A stretch of 64,000 nt of DNA from Prevotella sp. MGM2. GTDB taxonomy: Bacteria > Bacteroidota > Bacteroidia > Bacteroidales > Bacteroidaceae. Both the position numbers and the translations under genes were made by a program. A model generated the notes under the pieces. That model searched no databases. It saw nothing but the letters and a program-made list of their open reading frames with translations, and was not told the DNA's origin. This document shows positions 16,648 to 38,481 of this stretch, in pieces (position 1 is the stretch's first letter; every line of letters starts with the position of its first letter). The stretch spans positions 1 through 64,000 of the forward strand of contig NZ_BEWW01000322.1 in NCBI RefSeq assembly GCF_002933955.1. The letters run 5' to 3'.

Positions 16648-16677
16648 ACTTAAAACATCATAACAACTAATTCCCAA

Positions 16678-16685
16678 TATCTTTG
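16678..16685 (+). promoter_or_regulatory. TAnnTTTG -7 element
   Basis: TATCTTTG ends four bases before the ATG at 16690. No clear -33 TTTG is seen at the right distance. A transcript starting just downstream would be near leaderless for this gene, so the call is tentative. Confidence 0.35.
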
Positions 16686-16689
16686 CTCC

Positions 16690-19742: not shown

Positions 19743-19776
19743 CTCATGTACTAATTCAATATCTATTGTAAGACGA

Positions 19777-19811
19777 GAAAGGCCGCCATGCGTGATGCAC
19801 AGCGGCCTTTC
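19777..19811. terminator. Bidirectional terminator between convergent arms
   Basis: GAAAGGCCGC (19777-19786) pairs perfectly with GCGGCCTTTC (19802-19811) around a 15-base loop. The stem ends in T-rich sequence on each strand. It lies between the plus arm ending at 19742 and the minus arm ending at 19829, so it can stop both. Confidence 0.85.
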
Positions 19812-19828
19812 GCTTTGATATGGCAACA

Positions 19829-20353
19829 TTAAAAAGGGTGCATACGTCTGCGTGCCTTTGCTATCCTGTTGTGCAGGTTTATCCGTATCTCGCTCTCCGC
19901 GTCCTCGGCTTTGGCTTCCCATACCTGCGCCTTTGCGGTGTTGGTAATAGTCAGCCAGTCGGCCACAGCCTTGCAGACAAGGTATTCGTGGATGAGGTTC
20001 TCAAGCAGGTAGAGTGTGGTCTGCGAGAAGTCGAGCGGTACGCTCAACACTATCCCATAGACAGGCGGCTCACGCAGGTTGTCGTTCAGTTCCGTGCGGT
20101 GCAGGTCGTTCTTGGTGTAGGGATAAAGGAGTTCCCTGCATTTGCACACGGTCAGATTCAGCACTCGCGTCACACGGTCCACGTTTCCGTCCTCGCCCAC
20201 ATCCTGCACCATGTGGCGGTTGTGGTTGCTTTCCGTGTCCATGACGCTACCCTCTATAAAGGCATAGTTCTTTATGTCATACAGCAGTTGGTCGCGCTTG
20301 AACCCTAACACGGCGTTGAGCCTGCCGTCCTTTTCTTCCAAAAAGCAACTCAT
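19829..20353 (-). CDS. Tandem paralogue 3, probable virion/neck protein
   Basis: A 174-aa protein, the last and most divergent of three adjacent related genes. It shares a C-terminal pattern with the two upstream: VADWLTITNTAKA then a helical acidic segment and an Arg-rich end. The N-terminal part (KRDQLLYDIKNYAFIEGSVM) matches the same part of the neighbour (SWLLYDIMNETFLRGRTI). Function unknown; late position and three copies fit an adaptor or tail-completion role. Confidence 0.62.
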   Translation of the reverse strand: MSCFLEEKDGRLNAVLGFKRDQLLYDIKNYAFIEGSVMDTESNHNRHMVQDVGEDGNVDRVTRVLNLTVCKCRELLYPYTKNDLHRTELNDNLREPPVYGIVLSVPLDFSQTTLYLLENLIHEYLVCKAVADWLTITNTAKAQVWEAKAEDAESEIRINLHNRIAKARRRMHPF

Positions 20354-20364
20354 GGAACCTGGGA

Positions 20365-20874
20365 TTAGTTGGTGGGACGTGCCGGGCGGCTACGCTTGCT
20401 CACGGTCTGACGGATTAACTCCATGTTCTTGTTTGCAAGGGCGTAGTATTGCTCCGCGTCTGCCTTGTTGGTAACCATGTACCAGTCGGCGATAGCGGTG
20501 TTGGCGAGATATGCGTGGACGGCTTCGCCTACGCCGGTTGTCGCGGCTTCGTTGAAGTTGCTCGGCATGGTGAGATTCAGCACAAGGTCATGGCTTCCGT
20601 CATAGTGACTGTTGTCGGTCGTTGTGCCGTTCTCGTTGAGATACTCGCCCAGTTCGGTCTGAACCTCCGCAAAGGCTCTCTTGACTGAGCGGAGTATCTT
20701 CTCGCGGTTTTCCTCGTCCTCCGAGGCGAACATACTTGCAACCTCTTTGTGGTTGTCTTTGTTCTGAATGGTACGTCCGCGCAGGAACGTTTCATTCATG
20801 ATGTCATAAAGCAGCCACGAGATTTTGATTGTGGCTGTGACTGGTTTCTTTGCGCCTAAAGTGGGGTTTGGCAT
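20365..20874 (-). CDS. Tandem paralogue 2, probable virion/neck protein
   Basis: A 169-aa protein sharing IADWYMVTNKADAEQYY and the ending RPARPTN with its neighbours. The N-terminal ISWLLYDIMNETFLRGRTI matches the third copy. A duplication of a structural gene with later divergence is the simplest reading. No known domain is recognised. Confidence 0.65.
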   Translation of the reverse strand: MPNPTLGAKKPVTATIKISWLLYDIMNETFLRGRTIQNKDNHKEVASMFASEDEENREKILRSVKRAFAEVQTELGEYLNENGTTTDNSHYDGSHDLVLNLTMPSNFNEAATTGVGEAVHAYLANTAIADWYMVTNKADAEQYYALANKNMELIRQTVSKRSRPARPTN

Positions 20875-20897
20875 AGTTCGTAGTTATTAAATGTTGA

Positions 20898-21461
20898 TTA
20901 GTCGGTGGGGCGTGTCGGCTTTCGGCGGCTGTAGAGTAACCTCTCGGCGGTTTCCATCATGTCGGCCGCCTGCGTGAAGTAGTCCTTTGCCTCGCCTTTG
21001 TTTGCGAATTTGAACCATTGCCCGATGATCGAGGCAATGAAGAAACTGCGCAGGGTTGACTGGACGCTTGCGGTCAGCACCTTGTCAAACGACTTGCTGA
21101 CCTCTATGACGGCTTCGTAACCGGTCCTGCCTAATGTTACCGGGGGGAGAACTGGGGGTAAAGCATTTGCGTTTTCAGACTGCGTTGATATGACCGGTGG
21201 TGTGGGTGTCGGGTCAATTATAGCAATGGTGCTGATGAGTTTTGTCCTACCCGACACCAGCATTTCCTTTAGGTTCTCGTTGGTGGCGGACACAGACTCT
21301 TCCCAAAACCTGCTCAATTCCGCGAGGTCATCATCGGCCGCAAGGATGCGGTCGCGTGCGCCCTCGTCGCCGTCTATCAGTTTAGACCCTGTGTAGTCGG
21401 TCGCCTTGGCCACCTCTTCGTATACATCGTCTTGAAATATCTGTATGGTGATTGTTTCCAT
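20898..21461 (-). CDS. Tandem paralogue 1, probable virion/neck protein
   Basis: A 187-aa protein, first of the three. Its C-terminal region IGQWFKFANKGEAKDYF then RKPTRPTD aligns with IADWYMVTNKADAEQYY then SRPARPTN of the second. A Pro/Thr-rich linker (about residues 83-105) separates an acidic N-terminal part from the shared domain. It overlaps the upstream gene by one base. Confidence 0.65.
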   Translation of the reverse strand: METITIQIFQDDVYEEVAKATDYTGSKLIDGDEGARDRILAADDDLAELSRFWEESVSATNENLKEMLVSGRTKLISTIAIIDPTPTPPVISTQSENANALPPVLPPVTLGRTGYEAVIEVSKSFDKVLTASVQSTLRSFFIASIIGQWFKFANKGEAKDYFTQAADMMETAERLLYSRRKPTRPTD

Positions 21462-22045
21462 TATAAATCAATGATTGAATAGGTCAGACTGATTCCGATG
21501 AACGGCTCAAAGCCGTGTGGCGTATAGCCGAAGCCGACTGTCGGCCCTATGTGCCACCGCTTGGGAGGCTTCTTTATAGTCACTATCTCGCGCCGGGGAT
21601 ATACGAACAGGCTGTCAAGGCTCGGATAAACACCGCTGACGTATGCCTTGTAGTCCTCTCCCTCATAGACGTTCTGCGTGATTGGCAGCTGTAATGTCAG
21701 GCTGTCGGGTGTTGTCACTTCAACGTCTGCGCTTGTCAGTTCGGCGGTGTCCGCTCTGATGTCGGGCAGGTTCTCAATCCCTCGGTCAATGTATGACGTG
21801 GGGATTGTAACCTTTTTAGAGCCTACCTGCTGTGAGTGGACAGGCGCAGGCTCGATGTAGGGAATGGTGTCATATATCGTGATGGTGTCGGTTTCGATTG
21901 CCTCTCGGCCTGGGATGTTGTCGCCGGGCGGTGACTGGCACTTGTGGAGATACGCGCCTGCCGCCATGCAAGCGACAATTACAAGCACTATGGCAAGGAT
22001 GTCCTTGACCTTGCGAATTATTTTGCGTGGTGTGTCGCTTCTCAT
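21461..22045 (-). CDS. DUF6808-type envelope protein, spanin candidate
   Basis: A 194-aa protein. A basic N-terminus (MRSDTPRKIIRKVK) is followed by one membrane helix (about 15-35), then a periplasmic part with Pro-rich and beta segments ending in a transmembrane-strand-like GPTVGFGYTPHG...SLTYSIIDL. The ATG at 22045 overlaps the amidase stop. In Bacteroidales prophages such genes follow the endolysin, which suits a spanin or outer-membrane disruptor; this is inferred from context. Confidence 0.68.
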   Translation of the reverse strand: MRSDTPRKIIRKVKDILAIVLVIVACMAAGAYLHKCQSPPGDNIPGREAIETDTITIYDTIPYIEPAPVHSQQVGSKKVTIPTSYIDRGIENLPDIRADTAELTSADVEVTTPDSLTLQLPITQNVYEGEDYKAYVSGVYPSLDSLFVYPRREIVTIKKPPKRWHIGPTVGFGYTPHGFEPFIGISLTYSIIDL

Positions 22046-22713
22046 TTCTTGTGGTTTTTGATGTAGTTGATGATTCCGTTGGCATGGAGTTCCACGATTG
22101 CCTTTGTCCCCTCTTCCGAGAGCAGGAAGTCGCAGTCTGCCTTGTTGTCTTGGAAGAGCGATTCGGTCAGCACAGCCGGGCATTTGGTGTGGACGAGGAT
22201 GTAGAACCGCGCCTCATAGTCTGGGTCACCGTCACTCCAGTCTGCCCTCATGGGCTTCTGTCTGCTGTCGTATGCGCCCTGCGCCTGCAAGAATGGGAAA
22301 CGCTCTTTGTAGTCTTTCAGCCCCTCGTCAGCGGCTTTCCAAATCTCGGTGGCGAGGTCGTCAGCCTTAGTCCTGCCCGGCGAGGTATAGACACACCAAC
22401 CGCCTGCGCTCTTCCACTTGCCGTCCGCGCCTGCGGCGTTGCAGTGGATGGAAACGAGCAGAACATTCTCCTTGCCGTATTTGTCGCAGTAGGCATTGGC
22501 TCTGCGGCACCTTTCGGGCAGGCTTATGTCTTTATCCTCCTCAACGAGCAGATGCGCCTCTATCGGTGTTTTGGCATTGACCATGCGGCTGTTCAATGTC
22601 TTTACCAATCGGCGTGCTATCTCGCGGCTCTTGAGATACTCTTTGAGTTTTCTGTCGGGGCTACACTTGCCGGGGGTGTCGCTCCCGTGTCCATTGTCAA
22701 TAAGAACTATCAT
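22042..22713 (-). CDS. N-acetylmuramoyl-L-alanine amidase (endolysin)
   Basis: A 223-aa Amidase_3-type enzyme that cuts the amide bond between N-acetylmuramic acid and the peptide stem. Zinc ligands are visible: DNGHG at residues 6-10 (His), SIHCNAAG near 88 (His) and the catalytic Glu in LTESLF near 182. There is no signal peptide, so it needs the upstream holin to reach the cell wall. Confidence 0.9.
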   Translation of the reverse strand: MIVLIDNGHGSDTPGKCSPDRKLKEYLKSREIARRLVKTLNSRMVNAKTPIEAHLLVEEDKDISLPERCRRANAYCDKYGKENVLLVSIHCNAAGADGKWKSAGGWCVYTSPGRTKADDLATEIWKAADEGLKDYKERFPFLQAQGAYDSRQKPMRADWSDGDPDYEARFYILVHTKCPAVLTESLFQDNKADCDFLLSEEGTKAIVELHANGIINYIKNHKK

Positions 22714-22719
22714 ATCTAA

Positions 22720-23169
22720 TTAGTGATGAGGTGATACTTCGCTTTTGGTAGAGATTACACCGATAATCTTTTCTGCATCTTTTTTTGATGTTGCTGCGAT
22801 GATGCCATCTATAATTTCGGGCAAATCAATAAGATGGCTTTTCCTGCGTTTGGCGTGTTCAAACATACTGATTATCTCTACGACAATCAGGCCCATGCCG
22901 AAAAGCAATGCCATGAACGGCAGGAAATAAAAACTGAACAGGAAGCCGAGGCAGTCTGCCAAAAAGCCTATCAGCAAAAATCGCCAGTACTCGCTTACTT
23001 TGGCGATGGTTACTCGCAACTTATGGGAGTGAACCCGTTGCCCAGTTCGTTTCGCTGTGTATACTCCGTCCCATAGGTCAAGCATTATGGCCATGATTAC
23101 CAAGAGCGACACGGCGAAAAACACCCCGATGAAGAAGTATCCTTTCTCTAATGATAAGATTGATTCCAT
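22720..23169 (-). CDS. Phage holin
   Basis: A 149-aa membrane protein with helices at about residues 10-30, 62-82 and 84-102, the conserved loop LDLWDGVYTAKRTGQRV (about 31-47) and a charged C-terminus. This is the holin family found before amidases in Bacteroidales prophages. It forms holes in the inner membrane at lysis time. It is the first gene after a late promoter at 23195. Confidence 0.82.
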   Translation of the reverse strand: MESILSLEKGYFFIGVFFAVSLLVIMAIMLDLWDGVYTAKRTGQRVHSHKLRVTIAKVSEYWRFLLIGFLADCLGFLFSFYFLPFMALLFGMGLIVVEIISMFEHAKRRKSHLIDLPEIIDGIIAATSKKDAEKIIGVISTKSEVSPHH

Positions 23170-23194
23170 GATGATTTATCGTTTTGGTTCGGCG

Positions 23195-23247
23195 CAAAGT
23201 TACCCATATACTATCCCTGCCACGCTTTAACTTTTGTGACGCGACAC
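23195..23247 (-). promoter_or_regulatory. Late promoter A (holin-lysis operon)
   Basis: Read on the minus strand: the upstream element GTCACAAAAGTTAAAG (23240-23225) and the -7 TAACTTTG (23202-23195). The first G of GTCAC is 38 bases before the -7 start. GTCAC extends into an imperfect dyad GTGTCGCGTCAC (23247-23236). The -7 ends 26 bases before the holin ATG. Confidence 0.75.
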
Positions 23248-23285
23248 AAGGACGGCGCAAGATTGCTCCTGCGCCGTGTCTGCTT

Positions 23286-23771
23286 TTAACGATATGAGAG
23301 TATCAGAATCAGTGATGCGTATAGGTTGTATAGTAGTCCGGCTTCAAGCCAAAAGACAAAGTGCCTGCGGTCTGTTGCCAGGCCGATGAGCGTTGCCGTG
23401 AGTGCTATGTATGGCACTCCGCTTGTCAGTATGAGCCATGCCAGTGCTGACAGCCCCAGTATTATGGCGGCTCCGCTGTGGACGTGGTTCGTCAGTTCCT
23501 CGCGGAAAGCAGGAGCAGCCGCCACAAATAAGATAGAGGCGACTATGAAGAATGCCACGAACTGATAATTGTCGGGCGTGACATTGAGCAGAGGCACAAG
23601 GGCGAGTGTTCCGGCGGTCGCCGTGCAGGTCGGGAAGAGCCACTTTTTCTGCGTCTTGTAGTAGGTTTCGCTGATAGATGTCGGCACTCCTACGTTCAGA
23701 AGGTACGCTATGAGATACAGCGTCATGATGGTGCATGACATCGTCACGCATATAAGTTCCGCTATCATCAT
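23286..23771 (-). CDS. Hypothetical integral membrane protein
   Basis: A 161-aa very hydrophobic protein with five or so membrane helices (about residues 5-28, 48-66, 70-90, 100-118, 120-155). No family recognised. It overlaps the preceding gene by four bases. A second holin, antiholin or exclusion protein are possible roles. Confidence 0.65.
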   Translation of the reverse strand: MMIAELICVTMSCTIMTLYLIAYLLNVGVPTSISETYYKTQKKWLFPTCTATAGTLALVPLLNVTPDNYQFVAFFIVASILFVAAAPAFREELTNHVHSGAAIILGLSALAWLILTSGVPYIALTATLIGLATDRRHFVFWLEAGLLYNLYASLILILSYR

Positions 23772-24259
23772 AGTGCGTTCTCGAATTTAGTCCAGTCAAT
23801 AGCGGCTTTCTCCTGCCACGATTTATTGTAGCACTCCTGCGAGAACATCATGAGAGCGTCCGTGAAACTCTCAAATTCCTCGGCATCGGCGAAATAATGG
23901 AAAGCAGGAGAGCCGTCAGGGTAATCTCCCAGTTTGAATTTGAGGGGGAACATGGCGGCTCCCAGTCGCGGTATCTTGACCGACAGCCCGGTTATGTTGC
24001 GCTCTGCTTCCTCATCGTAGCGGACAGGCACGCCTTCCCACTGGAAGCCGTTGCGCTTACGCTCGTCAGCGTCTGCCGAGAGTTGCGCGTTGATGACTGC
24101 CTTTATCTCGTCAAGGGTCGGTCGGCGGTTGAATGTATGGCGATACTCGTATGTGCTTCCCTCTGCCGTTGTATAAAGACCGAAGAAAAGCACCCATGTG
24201 TTGCGCCCTGTTCGTTGCAGGCTGTCCTGCCTTACGGTTGTGCCAAATATCTTTTCCAT
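23768..24259 (-). CDS. Hypothetical protein, first gene after late promoter B
   Basis: A 163-aa soluble protein beginning MEKIFGTTVRQDSLQR. It has a conserved-looking core (TYEYRHTFNRRPTLDEIKAV) and Trp-rich segments. No domain recognised. A TTG at 24283 in the same frame lies inside the promoter, so the ATG at 24259 is the start. Confidence 0.7.
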   Translation of the reverse strand: MEKIFGTTVRQDSLQRTGRNTWVLFFGLYTTAEGSTYEYRHTFNRRPTLDEIKAVINAQLSADADERKRNGFQWEGVPVRYDEEAERNITGLSVKIPRLGAAMFPLKFKLGDYPDGSPAFHYFADAEEFESFTDALMMFSQECYNKSWQEKAAIDWTKFENAL

Positions 24260-24280
24260 ATCGTTATATGATTTTTGGCA

Positions 24281-24333
24281 CAAAGATAAGGACCTGCGCT
24301 TTGCAGACCCTTTTAAGTTTAGTGACGTGTCAC
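24281..24333 (-). promoter_or_regulatory. Late promoter B
   Basis: On the minus strand: GTCACTAAACTTAAAAG (24326-24310) and the -7 TATCTTTG (24288-24281). GTCAC again starts 38 bases before the -7 start. Here the dyad is perfect: GTGAC-N2-GTCAC on the plus strand at 24322-24333. It drives the gene at 24259. Confidence 0.78.
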
Positions 24334-24352
24334 GCTTTGGGGTGTGATGGTA

Positions 24353-24556
24353 TTAGGTGAACGAGAATTTCTGCTTGTTGCCGTCAAAGATTTCGCTCAC
24401 GATGGTTGTTTCAAACGGGAACCCATCCTCAATGTCCGAGATTTGGTCAAGGATGTTCTTCATCTCTTCGCTTGCGGTGAAGAATTTGCCCCACTCGCCG
24501 GTCGCCTTGACCTTGAACGATACGAGATAGCGGCTGTTGCCGTATGAGGTGTCCAT
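24353..24556 (-). CDS. Small protein downstream of the DGR reverse transcriptase
   Basis: A 67-aa protein (MDTSYGNSRYLVSFKVKATG...) with beta strands and one helix. The frame stays open and protein-like (NKELEIHDYEVE) upstream of the ATG, but I find no start codon there. It lies 41 bases after the reverse transcriptase and could be a DGR accessory gene, although it does not resemble the usual Avd four-helix protein. Confidence 0.55.
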   Translation of the reverse strand: MDTSYGNSRYLVSFKVKATGEWGKFFTASEEMKNILDQISDIEDGFPFETTIVSEIFDGNKQKFSFT

Positions 24557-24597
24557 CTCTACCTCATAATCGTGTATCTCTAACTCTTTGTTTTGGA

Positions 24598-25830
24598 TTA
24601 CGGCATGACTTTGCCGGGAAAGCGGTTCTTCCCATCGGCAGGAGTGTATGTCACTCCCATTTCTGAAAACTTTTTCATACGTTTACCAGTGATTAAGTGA
24701 AATATATACTTACAGTCGGCATGGCACGCCATACCCTTGAATGAGCCTATGATTTCCTGTCTGCGTTTCCGCGATTTCACCTTTGCCAGTTTACGGGCCG
24801 CGTTCTGCTTCGTGCGCCTGCGTATCCGGGCATAGTCGCCGAAATTCACATAACCAAGTGCGTCCATCCCTGCTGTTATGGGCGCAATCCTTTCGCTCGG
24901 CTTTATTGTCAGTCCGAGTTTTGAACTCTCTTCATGTAAGCACTCCCTTAATCTCCATAACTCTCTTTTACTTTCTGCCAGTATAAACGTATCGTCACAA
25001 AATCTGAAATAGTAAGTCGCTCCGTGTTTCTCGATCATGGCGTGGTCGAGGTCGTTCAGATAGAGATTGCCGAAAAACTGCGATGAACGTAAGCCCTTGC
25101 TGATACCTATGTCCCCATCGGGGTGCAGGGCTTTTACGAAATTCCGCAACATCGGTAATAGTATCGGGTCGGATATGTATCGCTCTATAATAGCAATCAT
25201 ATCGTCATGAACTATGTGGTCGTAATATCCTTTGTAGTCCGACTGGTAATAATACTTCAGATTCGGGTTAGCCTCTATCGCGGCTTGTATCTCATGGAAC
25301 AATCCGTGTGGGCCTCGTCCCTTTATGGAAGCGGCCGTGCTTTCAATCAGTACTGGAGCAAGCCGGGTTTCTATGACTTCCATAATGCTGTTGCTCCCCA
25401 TGCGCTCTACGACAATGGGTGCTTGTACTGTCCTTATCTTCGGGCCGTCCTGCGTATCAAAGGATGTCAGTTTGGTTATACGGAATTCTCCACTGCTTAT
25501 AGAGTGTTTAAGCTGCTCTATAATCTCTTTCTTCTTACGCACATATCGCGCCTGCCTCTTGGTGTATTCTTTGCCGTCAATGACAACGGTATCCTTTTTC
25601 TCGCTGTCCGATGCCGACTGGCGCAGGTTGCTTATTACGCGATTGAACGATGATATTAGATTGGCTTCCGTGATTATCTCCGGGATAAGATTGCATAAAG
25701 GATAGTTGACCGAGGGGCAATCCTCGGTCAACTCCATGAATGTTGCTATGTCTGTGACCGCCTTCCGGTCCTGTGGAGAGAGGCATTGCCCCTCTCCACT
25801 GTTGGTTATAATGTTCTTCCGGCTTTCCAT
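24598..25830 (-). CDS. DGR reverse transcriptase
   Basis: A 410-aa RNA-directed DNA polymerase that copies the TR transcript with errors at adenines. RT motif A is YYYQSDYKGYYDH (about residue 193-205, catalytic Asp). The fingers/palm motif 4 reads GLRSSQFFGNLYL with SQ in place of the SP of retron and group II enzymes, which is the DGR hallmark. The catalytic box is FCDD (about 277-280), where most have YxDD. The ATG at 25830 (MESRK) is chosen; a longer frame from 25920 would start at the end of TR and its extra 30 residues look unlike protein. The 93-base gap to TR may act as the TR RNA spacer. Confidence 0.93.
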   Translation of the reverse strand: MESRKNIITNSGEGQCLSPQDRKAVTDIATFMELTEDCPSVNYPLCNLIPEIITEANLISSFNRVISNLRQSASDSEKKDTVVIDGKEYTKRQARYVRKKKEIIEQLKHSISSGEFRITKLTSFDTQDGPKIRTVQAPIVVERMGSNSIMEVIETRLAPVLIESTAASIKGRGPHGLFHEIQAAIEANPNLKYYYQSDYKGYYDHIVHDDMIAIIERYISDPILLPMLRNFVKALHPDGDIGISKGLRSSQFFGNLYLNDLDHAMIEKHGATYYFRFCDDTFILAESKRELWRLRECLHEESSKLGLTIKPSERIAPITAGMDALGYVNFGDYARIRRRTKQNAARKLAKVKSRKRRQEIIGSFKGMACHADCKYIFHLITGKRMKKFSEMGVTYTPADGKNRFPGKVMP

Positions 25831-25923
25831 ATTCTTATGCTGTTGCCGAGGCGCAAACCCCTCGGAGAGTGCTGTGCCTGTCGCGCAGGCGTGCAGGGTC
25901 ATCCGATTGTGTTTAACCATTCA

Positions 25924-26039
25924 GAATTTGAGCCGACCACCGTAGTTCGTGTTCGAGTTCGAAGAAGCGTTGTTCGCGTTCGCATAAGCGAGGCCGCCAT
26001 TCGCATTCGAGTTGTTGCCCGACCGCAAAACCACACGGC
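25924..26039 (-). repeat. DGR template repeat (TR)
   Basis: 116 bases aligned to VR without gaps (offset +282). All 14 mismatches fall where TR has T on the plus strand, that is adenine on the coding strand. TR has 26 such adenines. In the VR reading frame TR would encode eight substituted Asn codons (AAT/AAC), plus Thr, Tyr and Lys codons, and then a stop (TTC TGA), so TR itself is not translated as a fibre end. AAY codons can vary widely without making stops, a known DGR design. Confidence 0.95.
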
Positions 26040-26066
26040 GCGCGGGGTTATCTGCCTTTCAAGGTG

Positions 26067-26074
26067 CAAAGTTA
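26067..26074 (-). promoter_or_regulatory. Promoter of the TR-RT transcript
   Basis: TAACTTTG on the minus strand ends 28 bases before TR begins, so a transcript would start just upstream of TR and run through TR into the reverse transcriptase. No good -33 TTTG is seen. It lacks the GTCAC element of the late promoters, so DGR expression is probably separate from the late genes. Confidence 0.65.
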
Positions 26075-26115
26075 CAAAATTTTCGCCTAACTCGACTCGC
26101 TTACGCGAGAAAAGG

Positions 26116-26151
26116 AGAGGGAGCAACCTCCCGTTGGTCGGTTCTCCCTCT
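26116..26151. terminator. Hairpin between fibre gene and TR
   Basis: AGAGGGAG (26116-26123) pairs with CTCCCTCT (26144-26151); inside, AACC and GGTT extend the fold. On the minus strand it is followed by CCTTTTCTC, on the plus strand by GCGCTTTTTT. It can end the fibre transcript 28 bases after the stop codon and insulate the TR promoter. Confidence 0.7.
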
Positions 26152-26178
26152 GCGCTTTTTTCGTGGGGACGAGTTCCG

Positions 26179-29100
26179 CTATCCGACAATGACGAATTTT
26201 CCGCGGAAGGCGAGCCGACCACCGCAGCTCGCGACCGAGCTCGAAGAAGCGTAGCTCGCGCTCGCATAAGCGAGGCCGCCACTCGCACTCGAGTTGTTGC
26301 CCGACCGCAAAACCACACGGCCACGGAAGCCGGGCAACCAGTGTCCTGCCGCATAGTGGGTAGTGTATCGGCTTGTGTCGGTCTGATGCACCTTACTTGC
26401 AAGAATGTCACACTTTGCGCCGTGGACTACACGCACCACGCAGTTACCGTTGCCGGTTACTGTCTGCACAACACGTTCCGTCTTGGTGATTGGGTCATAG
26501 ATATGAGCCTTGTAATCAATCGGGTCATCGTTGTTGTTATCAAGACAGCGGTTTTTATAGAATTCGGCATAACTCTTAACGTTGCAGGCGATATAGTCCA
26601 TCCACTCCGAGTCACAGCCGACATAGTGCTTGAGTCCCAGTATTGAGTTCATGGCATTGCCGACATATTCCGTGTCAGCCATACCGATGGAGTCACGGCT
26701 GTTCAGCGTTGCGTCATGCGCTCCGTTGCCGACAACAGCCTGCTCGTTGGTCGTTCCGCTCAATGCCCACCATAGGTTGCTGATTTCCTTGTGCTGTTCG
26801 TAGTCTTGCAACTGATAGCCTGCTCCGCGCCTGCGAGTGCTGTTTTGGAAATCCTTATCCGTGTAGTGGATTGTGCCGACTGGGGTTTCGGTCGGGTTGC
26901 CGTCTGAATCATGCGCCCACTCGGACGAGGTGGTTGAATTGCCGTCACCTTTTTTGGAACGGATAGCACCCGAAAGACTGCGAGGCATTTTCAGTCCGTC
27001 AATAGTAATCGGGTATGTTCCGATGAGGCTGTCGTTCTCGCCGACCGTGTGTTCAGTCCATTCGGGTTCGATCGCCTCAATGTGTGAACTGTCAACGGCA
27101 AGACACATGATGTCGCCGATGTCGCGGTATGAGGTGAAGTACATCCACTTTGCACCGCTCGGCACATCGCAGAAGACGTAGTTGCCGATTGAGAAATCAA
27201 AGTAGGTGTGGCTTACCTGCATGATGAACGAGCCGACAATCTTGCCGTCAGCGTCAGTAAAGACTGCGCCGAGGCGTGCGTGGTTCAGTCCGGGCCAGCG
27301 TGCCTGCTTCATGCCCTCTACGTCCATGCGATAGGCGTTAATGTTGGAGGCTGTGGCGATGACAGTATCATCAATGGTTTCTCCAACCTGCGCTTCGTCT
27401 GCATAGACCCCGGTGTTTTCAGCATAGAGCAGTTCCGAAAGCATAGCCTTAACGCTCTTGTTGACGGTCGATAGAGGTTCATTCTCCGTGGTAGAATACA
27501 AGATATATTTCTTCTGATTCTTGTAATCGTTCACCCCCTTGTACCAGTGGTGCGGCAGGTGATGGAAGATGTCGAAACCCTCTCCGGCTTGGTCGGAGTT
27601 GTCAAAACTTTCGCCCGAATTGAGGTAGCCGAAATCGGTGTCGCTCAACTGCACTCCCTCCATTTGATTGAGTTTGGAGTTGAACGTACACTTGTAGGCG
27701 TGAATACCCTGCTTGATTTTGAGGGTGTGACCGCTCGGCGCGAATGCCTTGTTGTAGTCTGCGCCAGTCTGATTTTCGGGGTTACTGTACCTCTCGCAGA
27801 AATCTCCGCCGATGATGTCATCAATCTTCAGCAACGAGAACTGGGAGTTGATGAGGTCGAGTTCGGGGAAATAGTTGCTCAGCGTTGTCATGCCTGCGTT
27901 GCCGTCCGTGTCAGTGTCCTCAATGAGTTCCGACAATATCCAACGGCCCGTGATGCCCGAACACTGTCCGCTCTCTTCGTAGGCTTTGCCAGTCGCGTCA
28001 AGTCCGATGGCGCCGGTCTTGCGCAGCTGACGGAGTACCGACACACTGGCGGTCATGTTGATGTTCGGAATGCGAACCTCGCGGATTGCTCCTGCCTCTG
28101 CGATTGTCATCACAAGGCTCTCCACGTCCACGAAGTCGCAACCCTCTACCCACAGACGGTTGATGCCGTTGACGCTTGCCAGTGTCAGACCGCCGGGATA
28201 TGTGAGCCTCGGCAGGTTCACAAGTTCCAGTTTGGTTACTGACGCAGGCAGTTTCAGCGTTTCGATAGGCGATGTCTGCGCAAGGTCGCAGTTGGTAAGC
28301 AGTGTGTTGCTTGCGTTGATTGATTCAATGCGCGGACAGCCCTTTGCATCAATGCCAGTAGCAGTGGTGTTGCTCACGTCAAAGATGCGCAGGAACGGCA
28401 TATCTCCCAACGTCAGGTTGCCGAGAGGATTGAAGCCGTTGAGCGCGGTGTTCTCGGTGTGCTTGTCACCGCCCAGTATGATTTCTTCGGCAAGCTGCAA
28501 CTTGCTCAAATCGTCAAAGTGGAACGCGAGGGACATTTCCGAAAGGTCAATCTTGCTCATGCGCCCAGTCTGATAGATGTAGAGCAGTGCGCCTGAGTCA
28601 TGGGCGAAAAGCGTGAACGCGTGGGTCTGTCCTGCTTCCAAAAAGACGGATTCCGACAACTGACCGCTTGCGTCATTACCGATTCCGAAATATCCCGGAG
28701 CTGCTGCGGTGATGTAGATTTTAGAATCGGCTTTGATGGCAGACACACGTCCGCTCAATGGATTGGTAAAGAAGTCGCCTGTCTGATAATAGCCGTCACG
28801 GATTGCCCAACGCTGTTCGATGAATCGGGGCAGTGTTGTCAGTCCCAGGCCGTGAAGCGCGTAGAAGTACGGCAGGTTGGCTATGCCAGTGTGGTCAATG
28901 TACTTGCGCTCTCCGTCATACGATGATACGACTTTGGGCCAGAATTTCAGACGCTTCTCCACAAAGAAGTATAACGCTCCATCGGGCGAGAACGGAACGA
29001 GGGTCTTGCCGTCTATCTGCGCTGTCTGATTACGCATTCGGTTCACAACACTCTTCAGTGATATGGTGGTCGTGCCGAGGTCGTTGCTGTTCCAGCACTC

Positions 29101-32100
29101 CTGCTGACGGTCCATGTTGTTGAAGAGTACCGAGCCGTAACCCATGTAGGGATTGGTATAACCGGTAGCTTCATCAGTCATCTTGTTGGGGTCTACCTCC
29201 GCGTCTATGTCTCGGCCGCCGTCATTGTCTGCGCCGTTGCAGGTGTCACAGTCATATACCTTGTTAAGATACATTCGGGTTGGCTCCATATTTCGGTAGC
29301 CGGAGTAAACGCCGTTCTCTACCGAACAGCCGTCCTCCAAGAAGAACATAGGCTGCATATTCTTGGCTCGTTGGTCAACAGCCGCGAGATAGTCAGTAAA
29401 GGCGGTGTATGCCATTGCGCTCTCAAGCGACATATAGCGGTAGGCGTTCTCTCTCCATATCTTCTCCCACCCGTTGACTTTGGAGTAGTCGCAGGAGTTG
29501 AAGAAACGAAGCATATTGAAGAGGTCGTAGGGTACTTTCTTGCCGAGTGCCAAATCCTCTTGGAGTTGGTCATCGTCAATCATGCACTCAAAGTAGTACG
29601 TCCATGCAGGATATTCCGTAGCCGCAAGTCCGAGTTTGCGAACCCATGATGAAATCTGTGTTGACGGCTTCATCATGTCTTCAATAGTCGCTACACCCTG
29701 CCACCAGTCCATACCTGCATATTGCAGTAGTTCGTAACCACTCACCGGGTTAAGCACATCGCCGGTCACAACCCACATGCCGTCAACCTGCTTCATTGAG
29801 CCAGTCGAACGTGTCCATGCGCCGTTCTTGTAGCGGTAGATAGCATAGTCGCGTCCGCAATACTGTGATATGAGATACACATTCTTTTGGGCGGCCTCTG
29901 TATTTGTTTCGGGGTCTGCCTTGAAACGAGCCTCGGTTTGCGCGAGGGTTTCATCGGGTGTGCCGAAGTATTCCACAAAGTCTCCGTAGTTGAGACAGCC
30001 TTTGTTATAGCCGGGTGTATCCTTGAAGCCGAGGGCGGTCTGCTCTCCCTTGTCCTCTTTCCAGTTGCCCTTGGCATGAAACCATGCGTCCTGCAAGGTG
30101 TCGGTCGTGGCGCGGAAGCAGGCTATCGGGTGGTTCTTTGTGGAATGGTCCATCTGACGACCCGTGATAACGTCTCCGTTGGAAAGAATCTGACGCCCGT
30201 CAAAGGCTCTTTGCGCCGGGGTCATGTATGACGAGCCGAGAGAGCGGAATGTGGCGTTCATCATATCGCACACGCCGCAGTCGTTGGCATTGGAACTGTC
30301 GGAATAATCGACTTTGACAGTAACCACGTCAATAAAGTTACCAGTCTCAGCGCAAAACACCTTTCGGTCAGCAGCAGCCTTGATTGCGTTGCGTCCAAGT
30401 TCGGTGCTGTCATCGGGATTGAGCAGGGTGACGGTCGCTTTAAGTCCTGTGGTCTTGTTCTTCTTGTTGAAGTTGAAGCGGTCGTTCTTAATGGGTCGCT
30501 GTGCCGAAGTCGTTCCCTGCCTGCGCCAAAGCACATTCACAGCCTTGAAGTTTACTTCCGGATGCTGTGGGTTGAAGTAGTACAGCGTGCAGGCAAACTG
30601 GTCGCTTGTTGATGTACCGCCGTTCAGAGCATAGTCGAAATTATTGAATGTGGTCTGGTCGGCGACAATCACATAGTAAGGTATACCTTTGGCCGCCATA
30701 AGGCTCATGGACGGCTTGCCTGTCGTATCCAGTACATTCTCTTTGTCATACTCCGCTATCATGGCGCGGACATCGCTCAACTTGCAAAGGTAGTTGCGGA
30801 ATGCCTGCAACCATTCCATATAGGAGTTGTAGGCCATGATGTAGTTGAGGTTGAAATCGCCGTTCTCGGAGTTGAACGTGATTGTCCTGTTCTGACGCAG
30901 TGCGCTCGTTCCCGGCTGATAGCCTATGGCGGCGCACTCCTCGCCGTTGACGTAGAGTTTGACAAAGGAGTAGTTCGTTCCGCTGGATGCGTCTGAGGCT
31001 TTGTATGTGACATACTTGCTCCCCGGCTCAACGACAACGGCGACTGTCACTTTCTCTCCGCATTTGAAGCCTACGCGCTGTCGCCTCGGCGTGCCGTTAA
31101 GCACTGTCAGCACAATCTCATTGCCACGTATATAGAAGCCGACACCTGCCGCAGGGTCGTAGCACTCGCAGAGCATAGCGTTTCTATCCTTGATACTCTT
31201 GGTGGAGAATGCCAACTGGATGGCGGCTCCGCTCGTTTCAAGGGCAGAGGGCGAGAACGGCGCATAGGGTATCTCCGCTTTGACATTTTCGGCGATGCGC
31301 AGGACATTCTCACCGAGGACGGACACAAAGCCGTTGGAGCTCCAGTTACTGCCGATGACCTGCATCGTGTAGCCGTTGTCCTTGATGGTGTGGTCGCTCT
31401 CGCTGTTGTTGCGTGTGGAGAAATCGTAGGCGAAGAGTGCGCCCTCTTTGATCTCAGCGTCAATGGCCGAACCCTCGACCGTGAGTGTGATTGTATAGGA
31501 CTTGGATGTTCCGCTCTGTGCGTACACGTCAAAACTCTTGCTTCCGTCCGAGGCATAACCTTGAATCTGCTTCGTTACATTGAGCGTCTGACTGGTTTCG
31601 CAGTTGGCGGTAGTGGCTATATGTCCGTCAATCATTACCTCAATGGCTGTGCGTGTTTTGCCCGGAGTGTAAGCTGCGACATCAAGCGCGATGGAATCAT
31701 ACAAGCGCACTTTACCCTCGTTGCGGTCATCGTATCGCATGACTACAATCGGCGTGCTGTTGTTTGCGTCAACGCACATCACGGCTGTGTAGATTGTATT
31801 GCCTGTCACACCCGAAGCAATGTCTTTGCCTTGAATGCGCAGGGGGTATGCGCCGTGCGTCAGTTGTTCGGAATTGCCGAACACGTTGTTCGGGTCAATG
31901 CTGATGTTGTGGCTGTACTGGTCTGTGACCGTAGCCGTGCCGAGGGTGTGCCATGCGCCGTTGTAGAACATCTCGGTTGTCACCAGTATGCCCTGTTTGG
32001 TGCTGACGTTGTTTTCAAACTTATACATCGGCAGGCTCTTCTCGCGTCCTCCTGCTTCAAGAGCGGTGGCGGCTGAGTAGTTAAGTGCCTGCACACAGGT

Positions 32101-34581
32101 ACACGTCACGTCAACGGCGGTAACGCTGATTACACGAGTGCGCTCGTTGCCGTCCGCGTCAGTGGCTTTGATTTTGTAGTCCTTGCTCGATGCCCCGGTT
32201 ATGAACTCGGTAAAGTCAAATTCAAATTTGAGGTCATTGGCTGATGTTGAGGACGGCTGATTGACAACCTCACTCCACAACTCTATATTGGTGGTCGGGT
32301 CGATGATACTCAGTGAGCGGATTGTTCCCAGTACCTCATCTTCGCCGTCATAACTTACGCTCTTGATGGCGGCCGACAAAACGATTTTACCACCATACGC
32401 GCCCCATACGGCAGAGTCGCAGTAGATGGTGAGTGTGCTTCCGCTCTGACCGCCACCGCCGTTGCTCTTGGGTATCTTCACGGAATCGCCGAGAGGTTCG
32501 CCTGCTTTAGTTACGGCTTGTATGATATAATCCGATGGGGCGGGTTCTATCTGCAAGCCTCCGAATGAGCGTTGTTCCATATCGTACGCGCCGCCGGTTG
32601 ACAATGCTTTAGTGCCGTTTACCTCTGGCTCGTTGCCGAGTTCAAAAGTAGAGCCACCGCCACCGCCGAAGTCTGGCCATAGGTCATCGCCGTTTGTCGC
32701 GGATATATCCTGCACCTGCCCACGGAACTGCTTTGTCTCCCATGCATGGGGCGTTTTGGAAGAATCCCTGCGGTAGGTTATGACAAGTCCGGATTTGAGA
32801 TAGTTTACCCCGGTGGTGTCGCGCAGGTCAATGAGTGCCTGTATGGCAAGCGACATGGTGTAGTCTTTATCTTCGCACACCTCATTGACATTCACGATGG
32901 CTTCTGCGCCTGCGCTCATGCCTGCGAGATCGAGCCAGTTTTCACTGCTCAAAACATCTTCCTTTTCAAGTGTCGCGCCGACATACTGGTATATCTTCCA
33001 CGCACCGTGAGCAACGGCAAAGGTAATCTGCAAGCCGAAACCTGCCTTTCCCTGCTCATAGACTATCGCTGGAGCATAATACTTGGTGTCGGTCGGGTCG
33101 TTCAATTGATAGAACAACTTGTCGGGGTCGCTTGTGGGTATTTCCGATGTGAGGTTGAACGTATTGCCGACTGAAGCCCCTCCGACCATTGTCAGTTTAT
33201 CGTTGATAATGCGGTATAGTCCGTCTGCCATACGATATAGACAGCCGGAATTATACGTCATGTCAGAGTTATATTCTTCTTCAGGGAGGTCATAAAAATT
33301 GGTGTTGCCAAAACTGCGGAAATACCAACCGCCCTCTTCATTCGGACAAAGCCATACACCACTTTTAGGTGTAGTGCCGGTTCCATCCCATTGACCGTCA
33401 CAAAGCAGAATCCCTAAGTTGCGCAATCGGTTGGCTGTGTTTTTTAGATTTTTCTGCAACTGCGCTCCTTCATCGCCGGGGAACGCCGTGTTTGCTGTAC
33501 GACCCAGTGCAAGGTCATTACCAATGATGACAAGTTGTGTGCCACTCCAACGATAGGTTTTATTATCTGAGGTAGAAATATACACCTTGCCACCTTCGGG
33601 GATTCTACCTTTTGCGTCACCTTCACCAAAGGAGCCACCGTCAAGCCAGTTGTTGTAGTAGGTGAATTTTGATGTGATGAGTGAGGCTGTTCCGTCCGTA
33701 AGTTCCCAGTAATCCACAACGTTCAATAGAGGCAACGCCTCAACGCTCTCTGCGGTGGCGGTGGCAGGAGTGTTGAGTGTCTTTATCGGGCGCAATATCT
33801 GCTCTCTCCATTGTGTACGCTGTTCATCGGGTATGGCCAAATGCGACACTGCAAGAATAAATCGGTTGCGGTCGCTGTCATAAACCACCATACAACCGGC
33901 ATCAGTTGATTTTTTGTTCGCTGATTGTGCAAGCGGTGTTATGTCGGAGACTATGGCATTGAACTCTACGACATCATCAACGAAGCCGGGAAGCTGCGCT
34001 GACGGAACTTTGCCGTTTGCGTCAAGAGAGGCCAGGCCGTTAGCCTTGCCCTTGCTGTTGTTGATGCTCTGAATGCTTGTCTCAGCATTGGTCACGCGAG
34101 TTTTCAGGCCGGACACATCGGTCGTGAGCGTATTGACCGAACTGCCGATAGTGTTTATCTGCGTGCGTATCTGCTCAATGCTCTGTGCGTTTGCCGATAC
34201 ATCTTTCGCCAGTTCTTTCAAATCAGCGTCAAGGGCCGCAACGGCATCGTTGTACTGTTGGCTGTCAATGGTCGGGTTGCCTGCCGATTCGCCGGTCGCT
34301 ACCCATGCACCGCCGTCTGCGATGTATAGGGGCGCAGGCAGGGTGTTGCCGACTAATGCCCACCAACCGTCATGCGGTAACGGATATGCCTCACGGAGTT
34401 TAGTCACGTCAAGGAAGATACCTTTGTTGGGGCCTTTGATGTTTCGGGCATCAAGCCATCCCTCAACTTTCAGATTCTTCTTGACAGTCGTATTCCCCTG
34501 TATGGTCGCGTTACCGCCTGCGGTGACGTGTCTGCCGATAGCCACATCACCCTCAATTTCGGTTGTCTTTATCTGACTCAT
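26179..34581 (-). CDS. Giant tail fibre/adhesin diversified by the DGR
   Basis: A 2800-aa receptor-binding protein. The N-terminus (about 1-60) has short repeats typical of a fibre trunk (DVAIGRHVTAGGNATIQGN), followed by a helical coiled stretch (about 120-190). A LamG-like sandwich lies at about 1080-1260 (ALFAYDFSTRNNSESD). A leucine-rich-repeat-like part follows at about 2050-2200 (LRIFDVSNTTATGID). The C-terminus carries a C-type-lectin-like fold (GFRGRVVLRSGNNSS...) whose tip is VR. The LamG, LRR and lectin assignments are by eye. By analogy with Mtd of phage BPP-1, VR residues contact the host surface. It overlaps the preceding gene by four bases. Confidence 0.88.
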   Translation of the reverse strand: MSQIKTTEIEGDVAIGRHVTAGGNATIQGNTTVKKNLKVEGWLDARNIKGPNKGIFLDVTKLREAYPLPHDGWWALVGNTLPAPLYIADGGAWVATGESAGNPTIDSQQYNDAVAALDADLKELAKDVSANAQSIEQIRTQINTIGSSVNTLTTDVSGLKTRVTNAETSIQSINNSKGKANGLASLDANGKVPSAQLPGFVDDVVEFNAIVSDITPLAQSANKKSTDAGCMVVYDSDRNRFILAVSHLAIPDEQRTQWREQILRPIKTLNTPATATAESVEALPLLNVVDYWELTDGTASLITSKFTYYNNWLDGGSFGEGDAKGRIPEGGKVYISTSDNKTYRWSGTQLVIIGNDLALGRTANTAFPGDEGAQLQKNLKNTANRLRNLGILLCDGQWDGTGTTPKSGVWLCPNEEGGWYFRSFGNTNFYDLPEEEYNSDMTYNSGCLYRMADGLYRIINDKLTMVGGASVGNTFNLTSEIPTSDPDKLFYQLNDPTDTKYYAPAIVYEQGKAGFGLQITFAVAHGAWKIYQYVGATLEKEDVLSSENWLDLAGMSAGAEAIVNVNEVCEDKDYTMSLAIQALIDLRDTTGVNYLKSGLVITYRRDSSKTPHAWETKQFRGQVQDISATNGDDLWPDFGGGGGSTFELGNEPEVNGTKALSTGGAYDMEQRSFGGLQIEPAPSDYIIQAVTKAGEPLGDSVKIPKSNGGGGQSGSTLTIYCDSAVWGAYGGKIVLSAAIKSVSYDGEDEVLGTIRSLSIIDPTTNIELWSEVVNQPSSTSANDLKFEFDFTEFITGASSKDYKIKATDADGNERTRVISVTAVDVTCTCVQALNYSAATALEAGGREKSLPMYKFENNVSTKQGILVTTEMFYNGAWHTLGTATVTDQYSHNISIDPNNVFGNSEQLTHGAYPLRIQGKDIASGVTGNTIYTAVMCVDANNSTPIVVMRYDDRNEGKVRLYDSIALDVAAYTPGKTRTAIEVMIDGHIATTANCETSQTLNVTKQIQGYASDGSKSFDVYAQSGTSKSYTITLTVEGSAIDAEIKEGALFAYDFSTRNNSESDHTIKDNGYTMQVIGSNWSSNGFVSVLGENVLRIAENVKAEIPYAPFSPSALETSGAAIQLAFSTKSIKDRNAMLCECYDPAAGVGFYIRGNEIVLTVLNGTPRRQRVGFKCGEKVTVAVVVEPGSKYVTYKASDASSGTNYSFVKLYVNGEECAAIGYQPGTSALRQNRTITFNSENGDFNLNYIMAYNSYMEWLQAFRNYLCKLSDVRAMIAEYDKENVLDTTGKPSMSLMAAKGIPYYVIVADQTTFNNFDYALNGGTSTSDQFACTLYYFNPQHPEVNFKAVNVLWRRQGTTSAQRPIKNDRFNFNKKNKTTGLKATVTLLNPDDSTELGRNAIKAAADRKVFCAETGNFIDVVTVKVDYSDSSNANDCGVCDMMNATFRSLGSSYMTPAQRAFDGRQILSNGDVITGRQMDHSTKNHPIACFRATTDTLQDAWFHAKGNWKEDKGEQTALGFKDTPGYNKGCLNYGDFVEYFGTPDETLAQTEARFKADPETNTEAAQKNVYLISQYCGRDYAIYRYKNGAWTRSTGSMKQVDGMWVVTGDVLNPVSGYELLQYAGMDWWQGVATIEDMMKPSTQISSWVRKLGLAATEYPAWTYYFECMIDDDQLQEDLALGKKVPYDLFNMLRFFNSCDYSKVNGWEKIWRENAYRYMSLESAMAYTAFTDYLAAVDQRAKNMQPMFFLEDGCSVENGVYSGYRNMEPTRMYLNKVYDCDTCNGADNDGGRDIDAEVDPNKMTDEATGYTNPYMGYGSVLFNNMDRQQECWNSNDLGTTTISLKSVVNRMRNQTAQIDGKTLVPFSPDGALYFFVEKRLKFWPKVVSSYDGERKYIDHTGIANLPYFYALHGLGLTTLPRFIEQRWAIRDGYYQTGDFFTNPLSGRVSAIKADSKIYITAAAPGYFGIGNDASGQLSESVFLEAGQTHAFTLFAHDSGALLYIYQTGRMSKIDLSEMSLAFHFDDLSKLQLAEEIILGGDKHTENTALNGFNPLGNLTLGDMPFLRIFDVSNTTATGIDAKGCPRIESINASNTLLTNCDLAQTSPIETLKLPASVTKLELVNLPRLTYPGGLTLASVNGINRLWVEGCDFVDVESLVMTIAEAGAIREVRIPNINMTASVSVLRQLRKTGAIGLDATGKAYEESGQCSGITGRWILSELIEDTDTDGNAGMTTLSNYFPELDLINSQFSLLKIDDIIGGDFCERYSNPENQTGADYNKAFAPSGHTLKIKQGIHAYKCTFNSKLNQMEGVQLSDTDFGYLNSGESFDNSDQAGEGFDIFHHLPHHWYKGVNDYKNQKKYILYSTTENEPLSTVNKSVKAMLSELLYAENTGVYADEAQVGETIDDTVIATASNINAYRMDVEGMKQARWPGLNHARLGAVFTDADGKIVGSFIMQVSHTYFDFSIGNYVFCDVPSGAKWMYFTSYRDIGDIMCLAVDSSHIEAIEPEWTEHTVGENDSLIGTYPITIDGLKMPRSLSGAIRSKKGDGNSTTSSEWAHDSDGNPTETPVGTIHYTDKDFQNSTRRRGAGYQLQDYEQHKEISNLWWALSGTTNEQAVVGNGAHDATLNSRDSIGMADTEYVGNAMNSILGLKHYVGCDSEWMDYIACNVKSYAEFYKNRCLDNNNDDPIDYKAHIYDPITKTERVVQTVTGNGNCVVRVVHGAKCDILASKVHQTDTSRYTTHYAAGHWLPGFRGRVVLRSGNNSSASGGLAYASASYASSSSVASCGGRLAFRGKFVIVG
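26206..26321 (-). repeat. DGR variable repeat (VR)
   Basis: Encodes residues about 2754-2792 of the fibre. Compared with TR it has 14 coding-strand changes: ten A to G, two A to T, two A to C. They alter 11 residues: Asn to Ser at 2765, 2767, 2774, 2776, 2781 and 2785; Asn to Tyr at 2777; Asn to Val at 2783; Thr to Ala at 2784; Tyr to Cys at 2786; Lys to Ala at 2791. None is silent. A perfect palindrome TTCCGCGGAA (26199-26208) sits at the VR end, where the homing signal (IMH) is expected. Confidence 0.95.
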
Positions 34582-35213
34582 ACTAAAAGTTGTTTGCTAA
34601 GTTCTGACATTACTGAGGATAGTTCGCTCTGACCGATTGTGGCAAGTACAAGCGAGGCGGCTTGATAGACCACCGACATATAGCACCGCTCCGGGATTTC
34701 GATACCGCCGTCACAATCCACTTTCGGTAGAGGGATATAGACGGCCTGCTCAACGGTCGCGGTCTTGTCCTTGCAGGAGAATAATTCCAGCGCACGGCCC
34801 TCGGCTCGGCTGACAATAGCCACAACTGGTTTCTGCGGATTTCCTCGCAGTCCCTTGTAGCGTGAGAATTGCAGCTGATACTGAGGGTCGGCGGCTGTGA
34901 TTGGTTCATACACTGGTCGCTCCCAATCACTCATTTTGAAGATTAATAGGCGCATGAAATCTTCGGGCAGGAGTGTCCAGCCCGAACCTTTGCTTCGCCA
35001 AAAGACGGCATCGCCGAATGGCAGACCGCCGTCAAGCAGGTGCGTGGGTGCTTCGGTCACAACCCTGCGCACAGCCTCGACAATCTTGGAGCGCACAATA
35101 TCGTTCAGCGACAGGGTGTCAATATCCTCATCGGCTACCAGTTGTTCGCTCGTCTTGTTTTCGTCTATGGCGATACGCACGTCACGCGCGATTTGCAGGA
35201 TTTTATACACCAT
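34578..35213 (-). CDS. Probable head-tail connector or adaptor
   Basis: A 211-aa protein starting MVYKILQIARDVRIAIDENK, mostly helical at the start, then a beta-rich middle (PQYQLQFSRYKGLRGNPQ) and a helical end. It lies between capsid-cluster genes and the fibre, where adaptors are usually found. No firm family match; the role rests on position and size. Confidence 0.55.
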   Translation of the reverse strand: MVYKILQIARDVRIAIDENKTSEQLVADEDIDTLSLNDIVRSKIVEAVRRVVTEAPTHLLDGGLPFGDAVFWRSKGSGWTLLPEDFMRLLIFKMSDWERPVYEPITAADPQYQLQFSRYKGLRGNPQKPVVAIVSRAEGRALELFSCKDKTATVEQAVYIPLPKVDCDGGIEIPERCYMSVVYQAASLVLATIGQSELSSVMSELSKQLLV

Positions 35214-35225
35214 ATCGCCGGACGT

Positions 35226-35789: not shown

Positions 35790-35808
35790 TGTTGTGGCAT
35801 TTATTAAA

Positions 35809-35841
35809 AGAGGCGGACGGCATTTCTACCAGTCCGCCTCT
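35809..35841 (-). terminator. Hairpin after the capsid gene
   Basis: AGAGGCGGAC (35809-35818) pairs with GTCCGCCTCT (35832-35841), loop 13. On the minus strand TTTTAAT follows. It lies 27 bases after the capsid stop and would limit read-through into the downstream genes, keeping capsid transcripts in excess. Confidence 0.75.
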
Positions 35842-35868
35842 CTGTTGTTTACTTAGTCTTGATGGGCC

Positions 35869-37446: not shown

Positions 37447-37473
37447 GGTTGGAAAAATTTTGTGATTAAAGAT

Positions 37474-37644: not shown

Positions 37645-37646
37645 GA

Positions 37647-38387: not shown

Positions 38388-38425
38388 TATTTTGAAAATC
38401 TTATGGTTGGGTCATTATCTATGCG

Positions 38426-38471: not shown

Positions 38472-38481
38472 GTGAATTGGT

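Follow-up and report, generated by a model that had tools for sequence, protein, structure and literature searches.

Does the retroelement encoded in a 64,000-base stretch of DNA from Prevotella sp. MGM2 still rewrite the gene beside it, or does it preserve the outcome of earlier rewriting? The stretch (the window) comprises bases 1–64000 of a 140,944-base contig (NZ_BEWW01000322.1), and a first-pass annotation made from the letters alone had described in it a complete diversity-generating retroelement (DGR), working or recently working, with strict adenine mutagenesis aimed at a fibre tip. We are highly confident that the element is a phage-borne DGR of the Hankyphage kind, carried inside a Bacteroidales prophage (Table 1). 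Throughout, L-numbers denote the loci compared in the analysis and C-numbers the contigs of the window's own genome.

Table 1. Features of the DGR and of the prophage that carries it (window coordinates). TR, template repeat; VR, variable repeat; RT, reverse transcriptase.
Feature	Position	Strand	Remarks
BKO1-TP3 match span	48..63668		29 matches among 47 BKO1-TP3 proteins searched; gene order largely shared
DUF4376 protein gene (phrog_19239)	23768..24259	minus	adjoins RT; candidate accessory protein or fibre chaperone
RT C-terminal domain, phrog_19665-like	24353..24601	minus	coded, but out of the RT frame
RT frame	24598..25920	minus	440 aa as it stands; frameshift near 24603; RVT_1
Structured spacer RNA, Rfam RT-3 (RF03068)	25766..25908	minus	57.5 bits against a cut-off of 40.5; between TR and RT
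TR	25930..26039	minus	110 bp, 23 adenines in 13 codons; identical in L005
Promoter-like TAnnTTTG (-7)	26067..26074	minus	reads into TR
Inverted repeat	26116..26151	minus	8 bp with a loop of 20 nt, 60 nt past the VR boundary; possibly a target-site hairpin/cruciform or the terminator of the target gene
VR, true homing segment	26212..26321	minus	110 bp, 3' end of target gene
Target gene, phrog_14959	26179..34581	minus	2800 aa, VR at 3' end

As the first-pass annotation had stated, the TR (25924-26039) and the VR (26206-26321) align on the minus strand without gaps over 116 bases, and the 14 differences are confined to coding-strand adenines of TR, every one of them non-silent. Three of the 14, however, make up a single codon, AAA in TR and GCC in VR (26209-26211). 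The VR side reads GCCTTC in all 23 TR/VR pairs listed, however much the rest of VR varies, and the residues RLAF are invariant across the 37 target proteins of alignment A2, from which L013, L014, L036 and L066 were left out for wrong frames. Because the VR side is fixed in relatives, the codon falls outside the homing segment, 3' of its boundary, and did not arise by mutagenesis, so the reading of all 14 differences as mutagenesis was rejected. What stands is that, within the 110-bp repeat, 11 of 11 differences sit at the 23 template adenines (hypergeometric P = 3e-9), as expected of a DGR with adenine-specific mutagenesis. A chance repeat was likewise rejected, given this bias and the recovery of the same pair, with the limits of Table 1 and 90% identity, by a repeat search run free of any adenine rule. 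The substitutions in VR are nine A>G and two A>T; the A>G share (9/11, against 278/630 in relatives; Fisher P 0.015) is a post hoc comparison that may reflect chance.

The first-pass annotation had also proposed looking for the same TR with different VRs in other genomes, and this is what we found in phage contig L005, which is colinear with window positions 17789-27128 (99.57% identity over 9347 bp) and carries an identical TR with a VR that differs at 18 bases. Of the 33 substitutions that separate the two, VR holds 18 and TR none; one is in the RT frame, which also has a 7-base gap, and 14 are elsewhere; the density in VR is far above that of the remainder (Fisher P 4e-27), and 15 of the 18 VR substitutions are at template adenines. 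Since so close a relative has the same TR with 18 changes in VR, the lineage has mutated recently, and to this extent the description as "recently working" is borne out. Shared-TR groups gave the same picture: in ten groups of loci whose TRs agree within two changes, 25 of 28 VR pairs differ by 11-19 bases, with 10-19 of the differing bases at adenines, and the five loci L011, L012, L019, L050 and L053, which have one TR, yielded ten VR comparisons with 13-19 differences each, all at adenines. In the pool of 53 loci, changes affect 641 of 1399 adenine sites and 11 of 4478 other bases, a tally biased to adenine by construction, as the pair script extends through template adenines and requires at least 75% adenine mismatches. 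Both between L005 and the window and within the shared-TR groups, transfer thus runs one way, with TR constant and VR variable, and the window's VR was made by at least one past round of homing.

Several observations weigh against this reading. The VR of L005 departs from its own TR at 19 of 110 sites, 16 of them adenines and three not; because of these three, adenine specificity is strong though not absolute, and the "strict" mutagenesis of the first-pass annotation describes the window's VR (11/11) but not that of its nearest relative (3/19 non-adenine). Three of the 28 VR pairs are near-identical, L022/L026 with one difference and L034/L035 and L042/L067 with none, each of the latter two pairs being on contigs of equal length and perhaps one record. 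At 12 of 65 loci examined (L008, L021, L024, L025, L032, L043, L045-L049 and L055) the script found no pair; some of these are cut by contig ends, and L047 and L048 do carry repeats, yet L049 (BKO1-TP3) and L055 have long flanks and still gave none. The structure model of the target is weak exactly in VR, with a predicted local distance difference test score (pLDDT) below 50 over residues 441-450 and 453-465 of the modelled part. Finally, a frameshift in the window's RT removes a conserved C-terminal domain of about 90 aa.

The RT itself is of the DGR type, with a GxxxSQ motif and the catalytic DD, its start being uncertain (25920, 25830 or 25737). The frame has an RVT_1 match, and the SQ motif named by the first-pass annotation is confirmed by the sequence GLRSSQ in all 36 aligned RTs, among which L005 represents the window. 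A structure model of the RT has as its top PDB match the RT of a DGR ribonucleoprotein (8ub7, E 7e-16), which we take to be that of Bordetella phage BPP-1. The L005 RT runs to 524 aa from the same start and is otherwise identical to the window's bar one substitution; the difference is the 7-base gap in the window, which shifts the frame and brings the stop after 440 aa. Among 66 related RTs that were followed to the end, 64 have the C-terminal domain in frame; many of these RTs come from close relatives and are not independent cases. The two exceptions are L037, broken in the domain, and L070, from the window's own genus, where a stop parts RT and domain, yet TR and VR differ at 12 sites that are all adenines. 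RT breaks recur in L113, L125, L127 and L156, where RT core and C-terminal domain lie in different open frames, through either inactivation or programmed frameshifting.

In the window, the frame of the domain is open over 109 codons, its first ATG (24556) lying inside the domain; in the L005 RT model the region consists of strands, one helix and strands (block pLDDT 78-88). It matches PHROGs family phrog_19665, of unknown function (4e-15 for the L005 domain), and nothing in Pfam above cut-off. Homology to the DUF4376 protein encoded next to the RT was rejected (hhalign probability 0.3%). The domain also occurs unfused: at L047 it is a separate 105-aa frame overlapping the end of an RT that three repeat copies precede, and at L073 it is a separate gene. 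With the L047 protein as query we found 11 places in 10 of 384 Bacteroidales genomes. Ten of these places have a DGR-like RT within the 3-kb locus; the remaining one is a weak match with stops. Three of the ten RT-linked places are fused, one is the window and six are separate, two of these six (L178 and L181) not being confirmed by our own domain model. Of 29 phage records matching the domain, 21 have an annotated reverse transcriptase (one as "similar to"), two are unannotated with an RT match that continues into the domain, and six have a hypothetical protein at the end of the RT, five of them named LoVEphage, BI-TP1 or PV4-TP1 kin. No description of the fused RT domain was found in the literature searched, a search that left most subscription papers outside.

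Avd, the accessory protein that BPP-1 uses as a separate polypeptide, was found in none of 25 related phage records. Models of bAvd (PF22296) and 23S-IVP (PF05635) matched nothing in seven records (Hankyphage, BKO1-TP3, BS-TP4 and four IMG/VR contigs) or in 18 further phage contigs of 11-67 kb, some surely fragments; the same models do find genes in genomes with other DGRs. The accessible text of PMC10053308 has Avd encoded by the majority of DGRs, not all, and that of PMC12135933 lists Avd in its Hankyphage map, against which neither model found an Avd in Hankyphage BK010646.1. The only bAvd gene in the window's genome lies on contig C283, beside another DGR. With the RT domain cut by the 7-base deletion and this gene on another contig, the DGR of the window is not "complete", as it had been called.

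Between TR and RT lies an RNA matching Rfam RT-3, which in the window extends over the beginning of the RT open frame; the stretch 25693-25923 folds with a z of -5.8. RT-3 scored above cut-off in 16 of 20 loci scanned, the exceptions being L032, which does have RT and domain, L073, L075 and L082. In an alignment of 33 rows (A3), a 45-pair structure is formed in 83.8% of cells and 26 pairs are changed on both sides as against 18.5 in shuffles. Sliding the partners lowers pairing to 33-43%, a comparison that favours the structure because it was taken from the fold of L005. One of five covariation measures (further pair types, 114/500 shuffles) did not rise above shuffles, helices 2 and 3 are paired in only 38% and 62% of cells, and helices 6-8 rest on about nine rows. 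The accessible part of PMC7657543 presents a refolded RT-3 helix with covariation and gives no function.

Among 395 genomes drawn from the phylum, RT-3 was found only in the window's own, where it occupies two sites, the window and a second DGR-type RT on C228; among 393 Bacteroidales genomes it was found in four, the window's included, at five sites that all lie beside an RT with the domain. In viral contigs, the RT-3 core alone as query gave 62 sites, 17 of them on contigs known via their RT, and 60 were testable once L128 and L138, with almost no downstream DNA, were left out. A related RT lies downstream at 42 of the 60. Where 1700 nt of downstream sequence was available the domain is present in 34 of 34, in four of them in a frame other than that of the RT core. 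Where 250 nt was available upstream, an adenine-biased pair was found in 19 of 40; the other 21 have a template-like stretch just before the RNA, with 9-13 (C/G)AA(C/T) triplets per 110 nt, the same density as at paired sites. RT-less sites (15 of 18 examined) have 0-4 triplets and no pair.

A second orphan RNA, Rfam RT-17 (RF03020), occupies the equivalent place in L047 and L048; there it spans 9780-9868, flanked by the last repeat (9680-9758) and the start of the RT (9869). It is also present in L071/L175 and L181. Above cut-off it occurs at three sites in the 384 Bacteroidales genomes, all beside a DGR-like RT and two beside an adenine-biased pair. Of four sites below cut-off, one has RT and pair, one a pair only and two neither; these last, L188 and L190, without RT or repeats, look like chance and were rejected. 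At L189 (C299, 6756-6880) a sub-cut-off match of 32 bits stands directly behind an adenine-biased pair (13/13 over 81 bp); no RT was found in this 3-kb locus, which may hold a fourth DGR of the genome or the remnant of one. Neither RNA reached cut-off in L172, L093, L075, L082, L073, L176, L178 or L179. We found no tie between RT-3 (RF03068) and DGRs in the literature searched, a search that did not cover RT-17 and had the original paper on these RNAs outside its reach.

In light of these associations we tentatively propose, at somewhat under even confidence, that the orphan Rfam "RT" RNAs serve DGR template RNAs as 3' scaffolds, with RT-3 in this role in Avd-less Bacteroidales phages and RT-17 in relatives, and that the ~105-aa phrog_19665 protein, free-standing in the RT-17 type and part of the RT polypeptide in the RT-3 type, does the job of Avd; in the window a frameshift would then have undone the fusion. 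In our main reading of the element, as a DGR of the Hankyphage kind, a promoter close upstream of TR would drive an RNA consisting of TR followed by the folded spacer RT-3, which may prime synthesis; the RT would copy TR into cDNA and misread adenines, and the cDNA would replace VR at the end of the target gene, guided by the homing boundary and perhaps by the conserved inverted repeat beside it. With 13 adenine-bearing codons, TR allows about 4e13 possible protein variants, which might serve varied receptor binding. The DGR itself is of a known kind, and the window extends the list of gut phages that hypermutate a protein likely to contact the host. What is possibly new is an architecture that lacks Avd and brings a scaffold RNA and an accessory domain of its own: the comparison proposes a function for RT-3, RT-17 and the unnamed family phrog_19665, and points to possible DGR function without Avd.

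What the deletion means for this copy can be read in more than one way. We hold it an open wager, equally balanced, that the copy is dead, the deletion having removed a needed domain and the VR being the frozen result of earlier homing. That the domain is kept in frame in nearly all related RTs and lies almost only beside DGR-like RTs speaks for its being needed, but the remaining RT is intact, other DGR RTs (L047, L175-L177) have the domain next to them as a protein of its own, and the adenine differences at L070, where RT and domain are parted, make a split form conceivable. It is rather unlikely that the deletion is an assembly error and the real gene whole: the genome is a draft of 329 contigs and L005, 99.6% identical, is whole, but the gap lies outside a homopolymer and L037 is broken in the same domain. 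Present activity of this copy is doubtful unless the domain is supplied separately; probably the copy has lost the ability to diversify, or retains it by way of a split RT.

The proposed roles of RNA and domain have competitors of their own. The overlap of RT-3 with the RT open frame in the window's group would suit a separate leader that regulates RT translation and is no part of the template RNA, but we think this improbable, as all 40 testable RT-bearing sites follow a template (19) or template-like stretch (21) and none of the 15 RT-less sites does. In BPP-1, moreover, the spacer in the same place matters for priming. It is also conceivable, if unlikely, that the true accessory factor is the DUF4376 protein (or that this protein is a mere fibre-assembly chaperone), the RT domain being incidental. 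Of 64 related loci, 63 have the DUF4376 gene directly after the RT, its start a median of 71 nt past the RT stop; the lone miss, L014, has the gene by separate search, L070 also has it, and in L053 its frame is short. The gene was not found, however, in seven other DGR-type loci (L172, L073, L075, L082, L093, L047 and L048), none of which has RT-3, so that DUF4376 follows this phage group, and lysis genes come soon after it.

We use "Hankyphage-type DGR" as our own label for RT-3 between TR and RT, a fused phrog_19665-like domain and a DUF4376 gene after the RT; the window has the first and the last, and codes for the domain out of the RT frame. Akin to the window, Hankyphage (Bacteroides phage p00, BK010646.1) has a giant target with VR, then TR (116 bp in the annotation), RT and a DUF4376-family gene in that order, an RT-3 RNA (146.6 bits), a homologous target and an RT with the same C-terminal domain; its RT is whole and only 38% identical over the matched region. 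Hankyphage is a transposable phage, whose DGR activity has been measured, according to the accessible text of PMC12135933, whereas the phage in the window has an integrase. BKO1-TP3 (PQ571269.1) and BS-TP4 (PQ571277.1) are of the same phage kind with similar gene order and have RTs 67% and 63% identical to the window's, but whole (1491-bp genes). BS-TP4 differs further in RelE and XRE genes, as annotated, between target and RT, and BKO1-TP3 in lacking a repeat partner of the template region by the script, though target and RT are both in the locus; one repeat may have been lost. The BPP-1 ribonucleoprotein 8ub7 resembles the window's group in RT fold and adenine-specific transfer from TR to VR, and differs in its separate Avd, where the window's RT family has the added C-terminal domain.

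Residues 1709-2797 of the target match the Hankyphage target (tblastn, 25% identity, E 5e-54), called a tail fibre in the accessible text of PMC12135933; this homology of the C-terminal part makes the "fibre tip" of the first-pass annotation no more than plausible. The last 480 aa, modelled, have as top PDB match the DGR variable protein TaqVP (5vf4; E 4.4e-4, TM score 0.29, modest significance), so the C-terminal part is possibly C-type-lectin-like. Behind VR, 49 of 53 loci have the inverted repeat as their best stem, 44-80 nt past the VR boundary and with compensated variants among them; by the best-stem rule it is missing in L009, L052, L056 and L066. No perfect hairpin of at least 6 bp with a loop of 3-8 was found within 110 nt of VR in the window. 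By analogy to the BPP-1 hairpin/cruciform behind VR with its 4-bp spacer, as described in the accessible part of PMC3240598, the inverted repeat may be a target-site cruciform or, equally, the terminator of the target transcript. TAnnTTTG, presumably the Bacteroidota -7 promoter consensus, stands 25-47 nt upstream of TR in 12 of 18 loci checked, and the six without it are those with a VR-TR gap above 900 bp.

That gap is 933-1012 bp in L009, L010, L011, L012, L015-L017, L019, L050, L053 and L054 and 229-347 bp in the remaining RT-3-type pairs among L005-L068 and the window. Long-gap loci enclose a toxin-antitoxin-like gene pair within the DGR (Gp49-like and HTH_3 genes in L010, the annotated RelE and XRE genes in BS-TP4). 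In L052, the Duncaniella muris copy (9602-9946), the gap is 57 bp shorter than in L051 and the inverted repeat was not found. L053 has an extra adenine-biased pair (94 bp, 4/4) downstream of the RT, at 11779-11972.

By its gene content the window is a prophage of ~64 kb related to BKO1-TP3 and BS-TP4, with capsid, portal, endolysin, repressor and integrase among the proteins that match BKO1-TP3; the contig start truncates the left-hand integrase. Relatives with 88% RT identity occur in Duncaniella muris and another Muribaculaceae isolate. Two further DGR-type loci were seen in the same genome. On the short contig C228 (L002, 1-3458) a second DGR-type RT, 50% identical, comes with RT-3, a TR-like stretch and a DUF4376 gene, with no TR/VR pair seen there; on C283 (L172, 52000-66000) a third DGR has 16 of 16 TR/VR differences at adenines and the separate bAvd gene. 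At 19829-21461 the window has three tandem genes with mutually similar products (BKO1-TP3 gp35-37 cross-match), with no Pfam family over cut-off. Just past the prophage, at 65988-67481 of contig C322 (L101, 1988-3481), a second integrase-like gene is followed by primase-like and type I methylase genes, probably a neighbouring mobile element.

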